The notes beneath the pieces are model-generated. The model did not search any database, had not been told where the DNA came from, and was given only the letters and a program-made list of their open reading frames with translations. Shown piece after piece: positions 25,285-29,986 of a stretch of DNA of 64,000 nt; within the stretch, counting starts at the first letter, position 1, and each line of letters opens with the position of its first letter. This DNA comes from Polyangium spumosum (GTDB taxonomy: Bacteria > Myxococcota_A > Polyangia > Polyangiales > Polyangiaceae). A program made the translations under genes and the position numbers. Where the stretch lies: the NCBI RefSeq assembly GCF_009649845.1, contig NZ_WJIE01000004.1:558001-622000 (forward strand). Reading direction: 5' to 3'.

Positions 25285-25878
25285 ATGCCGCAGCTCTCGA
25301 CGCGGACGGCCAAGCAGGCCCTCGCGGTCGCGTTCAGCGCGGCCCTCGGGGGGCTCGTGTCCGGTTGTGGGGCCGCGTCCGTCCAGGGTGACGCGAACAC
25401 GACCGCGTACCCCACGTGGACGGGGCACGATCAGGTGCTCTTCGACGACGTGGTCGACGCGGGCGCCCTCGGCCTCGGCGCCGATGTCTCGCGTGCGCAG
25501 AAGGATCCGCTGCTCAGGGAGCGGGCGCGCGCGTCCGAGCTGGTGTCGCGGGTGCGCGTGAGCACGGTGACGGTGGAGTCGCTGGCCGAGGTCCGCACCT
25601 ACCGCCTGGTTCTTCAGGTCGTGCCGCCGCCGTTCGGGTCGCCGGCCTTCGAGCAGACGGCCTTCGAGCTCGTCATCGGCCCTTCGGCCCCATCGTACGG
25701 GGTCGCCAAGGCCTTCGACATGCGCCTGCGTGGCGCGTCGTTCATCGGCTTCCTCCGTCGTTTCGCGGGCGCTGGAGACGAGCCGAGCAAGTTACACTGG
25801 CACCTGTCGCCGGACACCGCCGAGGTGGCGGCCGCCGTGACGGATGCCCTCGCCCTCGCGGAGCTTTCGGGATCGTGA
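25285..25878 (+). CDS. Lipoprotein of unknown function
   Basis: A 197-residue lipoprotein (lipobox LVSGC). The mature part contains an Asp-rich stretch (FDDVVDAGALGLGADVSRAQKDPLL) and a beta-rich half (YRLVLQVVPPPFGSPAFEQTAFELVIG, SKLHWHLSPDT). I recognise no family. The ATG at 25285 is chosen over an earlier GTG because GC3 bias begins there. Its stop overlaps the methionine aminopeptidase start (GTGA), suggesting one transcript, although the proteins act in different compartments. Confidence 0.7.
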   Translation: MPQLSTRTAKQALAVAFSAALGGLVSGCGAASVQGDANTTAYPTWTGHDQVLFDDVVDAGALGLGADVSRAQKDPLLRERARASELVSRVRVSTVTVESLAEVRTYRLVLQVVPPPFGSPAFEQTAFELVIGPSAPSYGVAKAFDMRLRGASFIGFLRRFAGAGDEPSKLHWHLSPDTAEVAAAVTDALALAELSGS

Positions 25879-26696
25879 GCAACGTCAGCATCAAAACGTT
25901 GAAGGAAGTCGAAGGGATGCGGGCCGCGTGCCAGATGGCCGCGGAGACGCTGCTCGCCGTCGGGGAGATGATCCGGCCTGGCATCACCACCGAGGACATC
26001 AACCGCTTCGTGCACGACGACACGGTCCGCCGCGGAGGCTGGCCGGCGCCGCTGAACTACCACGGCTTCCCGAAGAGCGTGTGCACCTCGGTGAACGAGG
26101 TCGTCTGCCACGGCATCCCGGGCCCGCGGGTGCTCGAGCCGGGCGACATCATCAACGTCGACGTCACCACGATCTTCAACGGGTTTTACGGCGACACGTC
26201 GGCGACGTTCTACGTGGGCAAACCCTCGTCCGCGGCGAAGCACGTGACCGAGGTGTCGCGGCGCTCGCTCGATCTCGCGATCGCGCAGGTGCGCGAGGGC
26301 GCGCGGCTCGGGGACATCGGCGCGGCGATCCAGGAGTTCGCCGAGGGCGAGGGCTGCTCGGTGGTGCGCGCGTTCGTGGGGCACGGCATCGGCCGGGTGT
26401 TCCACGAGGCGCCGCAGGTCTCGCACGTGGGCAAGCGCGGCACCGGGATGCGCCTGCGCGCCGGGATGTGCTTCACGATCGAGCCGATGATCAACCTGGG
26501 CCACCACGACGTGGAGGTCCTCGCGGACAAGTGGACCGCGGTCACGGCGGACGGCTCCCTCTCCGCGCAGTTCGAGCACACGCTCGTCGTGACCAAGAAC
26601 GGCTGCGAGATTCTCACGCGCCGAAGCAGGAAACTCGCGAACAGCGAGATGTTCGGGGACGTGTTTTCGGTCGCCGCCGCGGCCACGACGCGCTAA
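25875..26696 (+). CDS. map: Methionine aminopeptidase, type I
   Basis: A 273-residue M24 peptidase that removes the initiator Met from nascent proteins. The five metal ligands are in place: two Asp (NVDVTTIFNGFYGDTSAT), a His (GHGIGRVFHE), and two Glu (TIEPMI and FEHTL). The length is that of the minimal type Ia enzyme, without an N-terminal zinc finger. The GTG start at 25875 shares GTGA with the stop of the lipoprotein gene; the frame is open further upstream only as a chance extension. The gene is followed 14 bp later by the ThyX-like gene. Confidence 0.95.
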   Translation: MSNVSIKTLKEVEGMRAACQMAAETLLAVGEMIRPGITTEDINRFVHDDTVRRGGWPAPLNYHGFPKSVCTSVNEVVCHGIPGPRVLEPGDIINVDVTTIFNGFYGDTSATFYVGKPSSAAKHVTEVSRRSLDLAIAQVREGARLGDIGAAIQEFAEGEGCSVVRAFVGHGIGRVFHEAPQVSHVGKRGTGMRLRAGMCFTIEPMINLGHHDVEVLADKWTAVTADGSLSAQFEHTLVVTKNGCEILTRRSRKLANSEMFGDVFSVAAAATTR

Positions 26697-26710: not shown

Positions 26711-28237
26711 ATGCCTCTCGACGAAGCTGCGCGCGGCCGGATCGCGCCGTACGTCTCCAGCCTGACCGACGACGTCTTCGCCCTCTCGGGTTTGCCCGAG
26801 GAGGTGATCGCCGTCCTGTTCGCCTACTACTCGCGCAGCCGCGACGACCTGCGGACGAACCTCGCGCGCCTGCTCGCCGATCAGGAGCTCGACGTCGGCG
26901 AGGCCGCGGCCGCGCGCCCCGCGTTCGGGCTCGCGACCGAGAAGGCGCGCGCGTTCCACGAGAAGTGGGTCGTCGGCTATGGGCACGCGTCGGTCGCGGA
27001 GCACGCGGTCGTGCACCTCGCGATCGAGAACGTGAGCATCGTGGCCTCGAAGGTGATCGAGGACCTCCGGCTCGGCTCGTACACCGAGAAGAGCACGCGC
27101 TACGTGGTCTTCGATCGGAACAGCTTCGTCGATTTGCCCGAGCTCGAAGGAGCGCTGGGACAAACCTACCGGCAGAGCGCGGAGCGGCTCTTCACGACGT
27201 ACGTCGAGCTCATGGCGCGCGTGATGGATGCGCTCAAGGTGCGCGTGCTCCGGCCGCCGGGTGCATCGGAGGCGGCACACGCGGCGGCCATCCGCGCGCA
27301 TGCTTGTGATCTCCTGCGTGGCCTCTTGCCGGCCGGCACGCGGACGAACCTCGGGCTCACGGCGAACGCGCGCGCGCTCGAGGCGCTGCTGACGAAGATG
27401 CTCTCGCATCCGCTCGCCGAGGTCCGCGACGTCGCGACGGCGATGCACGCGGCGGCGCGCACCGTCACGCCGACCCTGGTCAAGTACGCGGCGAAGAGCG
27501 AGTACCGCGCGGCGCTGCGGGGCGACGTCACGGACAAGCTGCGATCGGTCTACGATCCCGGCCCCTGGGACGTGGGCGCGACGAACGTGGTCGGGCAGCC
27601 GGTGCGGCTCGTGCGTCACGACAAGGACGCGCTCGAGCGGATCGTCCTCGCCCTCGCGTACGAGGGGAGCGAGCCGAACGTGCACGCGCGTGGTCTCTCG
27701 GAGGGGATGCGGCACGCGACGGCGCGCGAGCTCGAGGACATCGTGCGCGCGTCGGTGCAGCGGCGCGGCGCCTACGATCCCGTGCCGCGCGGGTTCGAGG
27801 CGACGACGATGACGTTCGAGCTGATGCTCGACTACGGTGCCTACCGGGATCTGCAGCGGCACCGCATGCTCCTGCCGGCGACGCAGCGGCTCACGTGCCG
27901 GCTCGGCTTCGAGACGCCCGCGGAGCTCTCGGAGCTCGAGCTCGATCGCGTCTACACCGATGCGATGGTGGCGGCGTGTGACGCGTGGGAGCAGATCGAG
28001 GAGCAGCGCCCGCTCGAAGCGCAATACGCGGTGCCGCTCGGCTTCCGGATCCGCACGCTCTGGACGCTCAACCTGCGCGAGCTCTTTCACGTGATCGAGC
28101 TGCGATCGGCGCGGCAAGGGCACGCGAGTTACCGGCGGATCGCGCAGGGGCTCTTCCGCGCGGCGATCGCGGTGCACCCCTGGCTCGAAGGCCTCGTCCG
28201 GGTCGACCTCGGCGACTACACGCTCTCGCGCGCCTGA
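26711..28237 (+). CDS. Tandem ThyX-like (FAD-dependent thymidylate synthase family) protein
   Basis: A 508-residue protein with two ThyX-like halves. The first (about 60-200) has GYGHASVAEHAVVHLAIENVS and EKSTRY at 126-131 but no RHR. The second (about 300-480) has QRHR at 382-385, followed by MLLPATQRLT instead of the family's RHR-x-x-S-x-x-x-x-S-x-R. Real ThyX (about 220-250 residues) carries both parts in one motif, binding FAD and dUMP across a tetramer. So the signature is split between the halves and neither looks complete. It could form a working pseudo-dimer or be a relic with another role. No thymidylate synthase of other type is in view. The gene lies just after map and converges on recN. 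Confidence 0.82.
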   Translation: MPLDEAARGRIAPYVSSLTDDVFALSGLPEEVIAVLFAYYSRSRDDLRTNLARLLADQELDVGEAAAARPAFGLATEKARAFHEKWVVGYGHASVAEHAVVHLAIENVSIVASKVIEDLRLGSYTEKSTRYVVFDRNSFVDLPELEGALGQTYRQSAERLFTTYVELMARVMDALKVRVLRPPGASEAAHAAAIRAHACDLLRGLLPAGTRTNLGLTANARALEALLTKMLSHPLAEVRDVATAMHAAARTVTPTLVKYAAKSEYRAALRGDVTDKLRSVYDPGPWDVGATNVVGQPVRLVRHDKDALERIVLALAYEGSEPNVHARGLSEGMRHATARELEDIVRASVQRRGAYDPVPRGFEATTMTFELMLDYGAYRDLQRHRMLLPATQRLTCRLGFETPAELSELELDRVYTDAMVAACDAWEQIEEQRPLEAQYAVPLGFRIRTLWTLNLRELFHVIELRSARQGHASYRRIAQGLFRAAIAVHPWLEGLVRVDLGDYTLSRA

Positions 28238-29986
28238 TCAGGGAGCGCGGCCCTTGGCGCCGCGCTTCGGGGTCGGAGCCGTCGTCGATACCACCTTCGC
28301 CTCGTCCAGGAGCTCGGAGGCCGCCTTCAAGGCGCTCGGGCCGACCTTCGCGCCCGCGAGCATACGCGCCACCTCGGCGACACGATCCTTGCCCTCCACG
28401 CGCTTGACCGTGCTCTTCGTGATCGCGCCGTCGACCTGCTTCGACACCACGAAATGCGCGTTGGCGTAGGCCGCGATCGTGGCGAGGTGCGTGATGCAGA
28501 AGACCTGGTGGTGGCGCGCCACGTCCGCGATCGCGCGGCCGATCTTGTCCGCCACCGCGCCGCCGACCCCGGCGTCGACCTCGTCGAAGACGTACAGCCC
28601 CGCGGGCCCCGACTCCGCGAGCGTGCGCTTGAGCGCGAGCAGCGCACGCGAGAGCTCGCCGCCCGAGGCGATCTTGCGCAGCGGCCGCGGCTCGATGCCC
28701 TTGTTCGGCGCGATGAGGAACTCGACGCGATCGATGCCGTCGCGGCCGAGGCGAGCGCCGTCGACGACGAGCTCGGAGCGATCCCCCGAGAGCTGCGCGA
28801 CGTCGACGATCACCCGCGCGCCGCCCATGCCGAGCTCCGCGAGCTCGGCGCCGATCGATGCGCCGAGCCTCTCGCCCGCCTCGCGGCGCTGCTGCGAGAG
28901 CTTCCGCGCGCGCTCCCCCGCCGCGCGCAGCAGCCGATCTCGCTCGTGCTCCAGCGCTTCGAGCTTCGTCTCCACGTTGCCGAGCCCCTCGAGCTCCGCG
29001 GCGATCCGCGATCGCGCCGCGATCACGTCCTCGATCGTGGGCCCGTGCTGTCGGAGCAGGCCTTCGAGCCGGTACATGCGGTCCTCGATCTCCGAGAGGC
29101 GCGACGGGTTCGCCTCGGCGCGCTCGGCGTACCGATCGACCTCGCGGGCGATCTCGCGCAGCTCGGCGAAGCAACCGTCGAGCGCGTCCGCCGTCTTCTC
29201 GAGGGAGGGATCGAGATCCGCGGCGGCGCGCAGATCCTTCGAGAGCTTCGCGAGCTCGTCGCAGATCGCGTGTTCACCCTGATCGAGCCGCGCGGCGGCG
29301 TGTTCGGTCAGCTCGCGGAGCCTGCCCGCGTGGCGGAGGCGCTGGCGCTCGGCCGCGAGCTCTTCGAGCTCACCGGGCAGCGGAGACACCGCGTCGATCC
29401 CCTGGAGCTGGAAGCCGAGGAACGCCTCGCGCTCGACGCGACCACGCTCCGCTTCGCGCACGTCGCGGATCTCGGCGACGATCTTCTCGAGCCGCTCGAC
29501 CTCCGCGGCGAGGGCCTCGCGCGCGGCCGAGAGGCGGCCGAAACGATCGAGGTACCCGAGGTGCGTCGAGGGATCGGTCAACGCGACGCTCTCGTGTTGC
29601 GAGGCGACGTCGCAGAGCTCCGGCGCGAGCACCTGGAGCTCGCCCGCGGTGCAGAGGCGTCCGTTCAGGTAGGCGCGTGAGCGGCCGTTTTGCTGCACGA
29701 CGCGGCGGATGACGAGCTCGCCGCCGGAGGAGACGCCGGCCGCTTCGAGGGCCGTGGCGAGGCGCTCGCTGCCCGTCACGTCGAAGAGCGCCTCGACCTC
29801 GGCCTCGTCGGCGCCGGGGCGCACCTGCTCGGCGTTGCCGCGGCCGCCGAGCACCAGCGAGAGCGCGCCGACGACGATCGACTTGCCTGCGCCGGTCTCG
29901 CCGGTGAGCACGTTGAAGCCAGGCTCGAGGCGAAGCTCGAGCGAATCCATCAGGACGAAGTTCTTGACGCGGAGGGCGACCAGCAC
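28238..29986 (-). CDS. recN: DNA repair protein RecN
   Basis: A 582-residue SMC-like ATPase of double-strand break repair. Visible are the Walker A loop GETGAGKS near residue 34, a long central coiled coil rich in Glu/Arg/Ala, the ABC signature around SGGELSRALLALK, and a Walker B VFDEVDAGVGG followed by a switch His (ITHLATIAAYA). The C-terminus ends in Lys/Arg-rich residues. The stop abuts the stop of the convergent ThyX-like gene with no gap and no hairpin between, so read-through would give antisense RNA to both. Confidence 0.95.
   Translation of the reverse strand: MLVALRVKNFVLMDSLELRLEPGFNVLTGETGAGKSIVVGALSLVLGGRGNAEQVRPGADEAEVEALFDVTGSERLATALEAAGVSSGGELVIRRVVQQNGRSRAYLNGRLCTAGELQVLAPELCDVASQHESVALTDPSTHLGYLDRFGRLSAAREALAAEVERLEKIVAEIRDVREAERGRVEREAFLGFQLQGIDAVSPLPGELEELAAERQRLRHAGRLRELTEHAAARLDQGEHAICDELAKLSKDLRAAADLDPSLEKTADALDGCFAELREIAREVDRYAERAEANPSRLSEIEDRMYRLEGLLRQHGPTIEDVIAARSRIAAELEGLGNVETKLEALEHERDRLLRAAGERARKLSQQRREAGERLGASIGAELAELGMGGARVIVDVAQLSGDRSELVVDGARLGRDGIDRVEFLIAPNKGIEPRPLRKIASGGELSRALLALKRTLAESGPAGLYVFDEVDAGVGGAVADKIGRAIADVARHHQVFCITHLATIAAYANAHFVVSKQVDGAITKSTVKRVEGKDRVAEVARMLAGAKVGPSALKAASELLDEAKVVSTTAPTPKRGAKGRAP

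Follow-up and report, generated by a model that had tools for sequence, protein, structure and literature searches.

The 508-residue protein encoded at positions 26711–28237 on the forward strand of the window (the whole 64,000-nucleotide stretch of the Polyangium spumosum genome analysed here) is a tandem ThyX, with two Thy1 domains in a single chain, as identified from the list of open reading frames, the Pfam Thy1 and TIGR02170 profiles, and AlphaFold2 modelling. From its sequence and by analogy with canonical ThyX, we propose that the two fused ThyX domains complement each other and make up a working flavin-dependent thymidylate synthase, such that two chains would form a pseudo-tetramer with predicted composite active sites; we give this reading a probability of about 0.8. 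The pattern suggests that a symmetric homotetramer with three-subunit active sites became asymmetric after fusion, with each half losing what the other supplies, and the family as a whole suggests that two working and two dead sites were left.

Several features of the gene and its product support the domain assignment. First, Pfam Thy1 (PF02511) matches two stretches of the protein with a total of 161 bits against a cut-off of 24.8 bits, and the NCBIfam equivalog profile for thyX (TIGR02170) scores 89.5 bits, barely above its cut-off of 87.9; the PF00303 (Thymidylat_synt) profile of ThyA has no match in the protein. Secondly, the whole-chain AlphaFold2 model, built from an alignment of 38 tandems, has a pLDDT of 88.4 and a pTM of 0.88, and a ThyX fold is predicted in each half. 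The first domain, H1 (residues 1–285; 26711–27565), modelled alone over residues 20–271 (pLDDT 89.0, pTM 0.86), matches Mycobacterium tuberculosis ThyX (3hzg_A) with a Z score of 13.8 and an rmsd of 4.7 Å over 203 residues. The linker and second domain, H2, occupy residues 286–508 (27566–28234, with a Thy1 match at 27605–28183), and the H2 model (residues 293–502) matches Thermotoga maritima ThyX (1o26_A) with a Z score of 15.7 and an rmsd of 2.6 Å over 192 residues. Thirdly, dN/dS of the gene is 0.12–0.16 against four Polyangium orthologues and 0.39, in a gap-free comparison, against the more distant Minicystis copy (L041). A chance or misread frame is ruled out by the Thy1 matches, the dN/dS values and the motif counts across tandems, and a 494-residue antisense frame over the gene was judged to be mechanical.

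The protein does not have the single-domain subunit that is a ThyX trait, nor does either domain contain a contiguous RHR-x7-S motif: H1 has DLR followed by S-x-RY, and H2 has RHR without S-x-RY. In H1 (GYGHASVAEH ... DLRLGSYTEKSTRY) the FAD side of the site is represented by G89-Y-G-H92-A-S94-V-A-E97-H98 (26975–27004), which includes the equivalents of T. maritima H53 and M. tuberculosis S71; the place of RHR is occupied by D118-L119-R120 (27062–27070), of which R120 alone is kept, and T125-E-K-S128-T-R130-Y131 (27083–27103) is the predicted dUMP-binding loop. In H2 (RGAYDPVPRGFE ... QRHRMLLPATQRLT), R383-H384-R385 (27857–27865) is the predicted FAD- and dUMP-binding RHR motif, and R465 (28103–28105) aligns with T. 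maritima R174 and M. tuberculosis R199, the arginine of dUMP activation. The original prediction, which described a double ThyX-like protein with its catalytic motif split between the halves, was exact in coordinates, strand and motifs (E126-K-S-T-R-Y131 in H1, and Q382-R-H-R385 followed by MLLPATQRLT in H2), and the split that it reported recurs in 78 of 80 tandems.

The division of catalytic residues was counted across 80 non-identical full-length tandems of bacterial and archaeal origin, the window protein included, which remained after 9 partial sequences and 16 exact duplicates were removed from 105 BLAST hits; full length is defined as coverage of the query from residue 30 or earlier to at least residue 490. 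Motif counts made without alignment place RHR in H2 of 79/80 and anywhere in H1 of 0/80, and S-x-R-Y in H1 of 78/80 and in H2 of a single protein (L049), where SYRY lies close to the C-terminus and away from the motif position. In the alignment, the H1 residues H92, S94, R221 and R130 are each present in 79, S128 in all 80 and Y131 in 78, and the H2 residues R383 and R385 are present in all 80, with H384 and R465 in 79 each. The matching positions in the opposite half have mostly lost these residues: H1 has Arg at 118 in none, His at 119 in one and Arg at 229 in two, with R120 in all 80, and H2 has neither His at 354 nor Ser at 356 in any, Ser at 394 in two, and R456 in 79. Arg at 396 and Tyr at 397 of H2 (positions that were both set by offset) are found in 0/80, and both positions are gapped in 29/29 sequences of a half-against-half alignment. 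All ten scored FAD- and dUMP-contacting residues are held across the two halves in 78 of the 80 tandems, the exceptions being L054 (Y131F) and L082. Two further positions were left out of the ten. The M. tuberculosis R87 position was omitted because it is not conserved, with Ile in most H1 and Phe in 72% of single ThyX proteins; T. maritima R147, whose equivalent is R203 in H1 (80/80) and mostly Gln in H2, was omitted because a literature search on ThyX R147 and FAD did not find which subunit it serves. The tandems of four genomes (G006, G045, G056 and G057; loci L012, L026, L010 and L008) are absent from the 80 because of the full-length and duplicate filters.

A broader view of conservation is given by the 53 columns that are at least 70% conserved in 18 single ThyX proteins, of which 12 are kept in H1 only, 12 in H2 only, and 4 in both; the remaining 25 are kept in neither half, which counts against the synthase reading. 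Outside the 80, ten more divergent tandems (L008, L026 and L112–L119) were inspected by eye: all ten have S-x-R-Y in H1, and eight have RHR in H2. The two departures, L114 and L115, are on viral contigs of 197 and 229 kb, and have RHN for RHR in H2 with TEYSQRY in H1. Because of these, and because the first RHR position in the single ThyX set is Arg in 14/18 and Lys in 4/18, RHR is not absolutely required. We also note four single-domain ThyX proteins, from three phages and one metagenome-assembled genome (MAG) (L127, L128, L130 and L122), that lack RHR (with e.g. KYAV or KHAY) and keep S-x-RY.

M. tuberculosis ThyX binds the FAD of subunit A through the RHR motif of A together with S71 and R190 of subunit B, and binds dUMP through R95 and R199 of A with R87, S105 and R107 of subunit C, whose Y108 forms a lid over dUMP (PMC6514825). 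Other reports add that T. maritima H53 lies on 'monomer-3' (PMC11940539), that one monomer contributes S88 and Gln-89, and the other Arg-182 and Gln-75, in a PBCV-1 inhibitor complex (PMC3498832), and that T. maritima Y91 and S88 are proposed to aid methylene transfer with R174 as the proposed dUMP activator (PMC8316439); the tandem equivalents of these last three, Y131, S128 and R465, are all kept. By twofold symmetry we derive that the four sites of the tetramer draw on subunit positions (A,B,C), (B,A,D), (C,D,A) and (D,C,B). If H2 occupies A and D, and H1 occupies B and C, then all ten scored residues would come together at sites 1 and 4 in 78/80 tandems (R87 excluded), and sites 2 and 3 would be left with the R97 and R190 equivalents alone, the other eight being nearly absent (0–2/80). 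The alternative arrangements bring fewer residues together, with 8/10 when H2 is at A and B, and 7/10 when it is at A and C.

We therefore favor a model in which two tandem chains would assemble into a pseudo-tetramer resembling the canonical ThyX homotetramer. At two of the four sites, H2 would provide RHR (R383-H384-R385) and R465 for FAD and dUMP, one H1 would place H92, S94 and R221 beside the flavin, and S128, R130 and the tyrosine lid Y131 would come from the other H1 to cover dUMP; the remaining two sites would be non-catalytic, and the chemistry would be that of the ordinary ThyX reaction. It is from the sequences and the published geometry that we infer the dimer assembly, the halves that would meet at each site (including a predicted meeting in space of the H2 RHR with H1 residues), and the activity. 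The suggestion that the halves complement one another inside one chain is supported in part: the ten residues are divided alike in 78/80 tandems, but two chains would be needed because the published geometry draws each site from three subunit positions.

An active synthase with H2 at the A and B positions, in which H2 would pair with a second H2 around the flavin, is an unlikely variant; RHR, R465, R456 and S-x-RY would still reach one site, but H92 and S94 (79/80 each) would be left unused, and H2 conserves an Asp at the S71 position (28/29). Returning to the arrangement with H2 at A and D, the scored residues that remain at the non-catalytic sites are R120 (H1, 80/80) and R456 (H2, 79/80) alone, whose equivalents contact the phosphate and ribityl moieties of FAD in canonical ThyX (PMC6514825). 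We speculate, at a low probability, that these two sites may have been converted to regulatory or feeding sites holding NADPH, another flavin or a nucleotide effector, in which case catalysis and regulation would take place at different sites of one pseudo-symmetric thymidylate synthase scaffold. Because residues of H1 and of H2 can be mutated independently, the tandem offers a system for probing flavin handling and the NADPH site of ThyX.

The genome of the window is 10.76 Mb in 61 contigs and is 99.7% complete. The search for thyA or an ordinary thyX elsewhere in the genome that had been suggested with the original prediction was run and found neither: PF02511 matches these two halves only, and the PF00303 profile search returned no thyA. 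The tandem ThyX is probably the organism's only de novo route to T, although thymidine salvage is in principle possible as a backup because the genome has a thymidine kinase, as do 41 of the 59 genomes compared. These 59 genomes, the window genome among them, comprise 20 with a tandem ThyX (including G006, in which H1 is truncated at a contig edge and the protein is 67% identical), six with a single ThyX, and 33 without Thy1. A thyA gene is present in 2/20, 0/6 and 32/33 of these, respectively (Fisher p 5e-11 for tandem versus no Thy1, ignoring shared descent), such that thyA and tandem ThyX are almost mutually exclusive. ThyX converts dUMP, CH2-THF and NADPH to dTMP and THF, and loss of folA is expected if THF and not DHF is the product. 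The folA gene is present in five of the 18 tandem genomes that lack thyA versus 33 of 34 thyA genomes (Fisher p 2e-7, shared descent again ignored), with the five that retain it counting against the synthase reading.

A second set, overlapping the first, consists of the 48 genomes that hold the listed tandem loci. PF00303 has no match in 42 of these, a full match in one (G086), and partial matches in five; 44 have no Thy1 beyond the tandem pair, and the other four have a single ThyX-like gene or genes (G064 and G098), a fragment (G070), or a match below the cut-off (G099). The partial PF00303 matches and these additional Thy1 matches weigh against the synthase reading. Neither another Thy1 nor a PF00303 match is found in 39 of the 48, including two records titled complete, from Sorangium (L036/G060) and Minicystis (L041/G061). 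We note that G064, a MAG labelled Dependentiae, has three single ThyX-like genes besides the tandem, which suggests mixed binning, and that a relative of 94% completeness (G051) has no match to the thyA, thyX, folA or thymidine kinase profiles, reflecting either another source of dTMP or an assembly gap.

Two cases in which thyA and a tandem ThyX coexist are informative. In G008, thyA and folA are adjacent, and its tandem (L027, the same protein as L082:4001–5365 of a Byssovorax MAG) has lost seven of the ten active-site residues with three left, having GAAASASAEH in place of GYGHASVAEH and RTR in place of RHR; its frame is open and the protein is 45% identical to that of the window. This amounts to a natural test, in which residue decay where thyA is present argues for the synthase role. 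The second case, G001, belongs to the genus of the window and has thyA and folA beside an intact tandem (L014, the same protein as L035), and the exclusion is thus not absolute; its thyA is possibly a recent gain.

The tandem family is old and widely distributed. Of 433 stretches picked out by a pattern scan of genome contigs, 385 were confirmed as relatives, and the best 80 of these 385 were kept. They include bacteria (Polyangium, Sorangium, Minicystis and other myxobacteria, Armatimonadota, Acidobacteria, NC10/Methylomirabilota, a Thermoflexales MAG and Patescibacteria) and archaea (Woesearchaeota, Aenigmatarchaeota and other DPANN MAGs), although single taxon labels may be wrong because many loci come from MAGs. 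Tandem ThyX genes are also present on viral contigs (four loci) and in large phages. In a maximum-likelihood tree of a chosen subset (29 H1, 29 H2 and 18 single ThyX), all H1 sequences cluster together, as do all H2 sequences, each with ultrafast bootstrap support of 100 and on long branches, and this two-group tree fits one ancient fusion.

Immediately upstream of the window gene is a frame with an M24 metallopeptidase domain (25416–26696, forward strand), which we read as a methionine aminopeptidase and which ends 14 nt before the tandem gene; a convergent RecN/SMC-type gene (28238–29986, reverse strand) abuts the tandem stop codon. These neighbors say nothing about function. Across the best 80 of the 385 relatives, a gene for a dUTPase, dCTP deaminase, dCMP deaminase or thymidylate kinase lies near the tandem at 13 loci; neighbor identities were obtained with Pfam for nine proteins from five of the 13 loci and one phage protein, and with phmmer over the 80 loci. 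Four of the 13 (L080, L092, L098 and L105) themselves supplied queries, and these four and L094 were first spotted on visual inspection of 14 sampled loci; with a cruder motif scan, such neighbors were seen at eight of 84 loci. Eleven of the 13 fall among 25 loci labelled Patescibacteria-type or DPANN-type, and the remaining two are L091 and L053 (Blastocatellia). A dCMP deaminase gene also precedes the tandem of phage Tunturi_5 (L116:435–1397), and this protein carries a carbohydrate-binding module (CBM_5_12, E 6.4e-10).

The original prediction had offered loss of thymidylate synthesis as an alternative, and the evidence does not support it. A ThyX-derived enzyme that makes no dTMP and instead methylates or reduces another nucleotide, as does PolB (a UMP C5-methylase), would account for the lack of a complete motif in either half, and both halves have PolB 4p5b among their structural matches. 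We nonetheless consider this improbable: another synthase was not found in the window genome or in 39/48 tandem genomes, dUMP/dTMP-pathway genes are neighbors at 13 of the best 80 of 385 loci, and the active-site residues decay in a genome possessing thyA. Loss of function was set aside as the leading explanation, given that the search of the window genome yielded no other synthase and that the ten residues are kept in 78/80 tandems. A non-catalytic relic retained for folding or regulation of another synthase is what the Byssovorax copy looks like, but is highly improbable as a general explanation given the dN/dS of 0.12–0.16 against four Polyangium orthologues, the ten residues intact in 78/80, and 39/48 tandem genomes in which no other synthase was found.

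Tandem ThyX, read as a synthase, shares with canonical ThyX/FDTS (T. maritima TM0449 and M. tuberculosis ThyX) the predicted fold in both halves, the equivalents of RHR, H53, Ser or Thr at the S71 position, S-x-R-Y, R174/R199 and R165/R190 across the chain, and a thyA-replacing distribution. It differs in having two domains per chain with RHR-x7-S divided between them, and in being a predicted homodimer rather than a homotetramer, with two of the four sites predicted to be dead. The tandem itself is already in print: an excerpt of the 2009 report of Valas and Bourne notes an uncharacterised ThyX with a domain duplication in Chloroflexi, as the only thymidylate synthase of most Chloroflexi then sequenced and also present 'in a few other species' (PMC3224940). 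The Chloroflexi protein very likely belongs to the same family, and a Thermoflexales MAG tandem (L107) is in our alignment; the excerpt does not mention split residues, a composite site or a wide spread. Among the matches listed for openly licensed PMC papers on tandem, duplicated or fused ThyX or its hosts, that report alone names the duplication, and neither a split catalytic set nor a composite-site model was found.

The tandem proteins of large phages (e.g. Ma-LMM01 gp020, Tunturi_5 gp50 and those of Vibrio phages) likewise have RHR in H2 and S-T-R-Y in H1 (four proteins, L116–L119), but share only 23–29% identity with the window protein and are annotated as thymidylate synthase or hypothetical protein. 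Two other relatives have the ThyX fold in a single domain. The atypical ThyX of Corynebacterium glutamicum (3fnn, 3ge9) is, according to its PDB titles, dispensable for dTMP as the strain depends on ThyA, and the UMP/dUMP methylase PolB (4p5a, 4p5b) is reported to act in antibiotic biosynthesis; the genes beside the window tandem are those of the M24 peptidase and the RecN/SMC-type protein.

A same-family relative, G018, was at first sight a further tandem with two Thy1 matches, but is counted as a single ThyX carrying a 455-residue intein-like insert. The insert interrupts the RHR-x7-S motif (L133:291–2717, contig G018:C44), begins with Cys and ends with His-Asn before a Ser, and judged by its sequence is an apparent intein at the catalytic motif.
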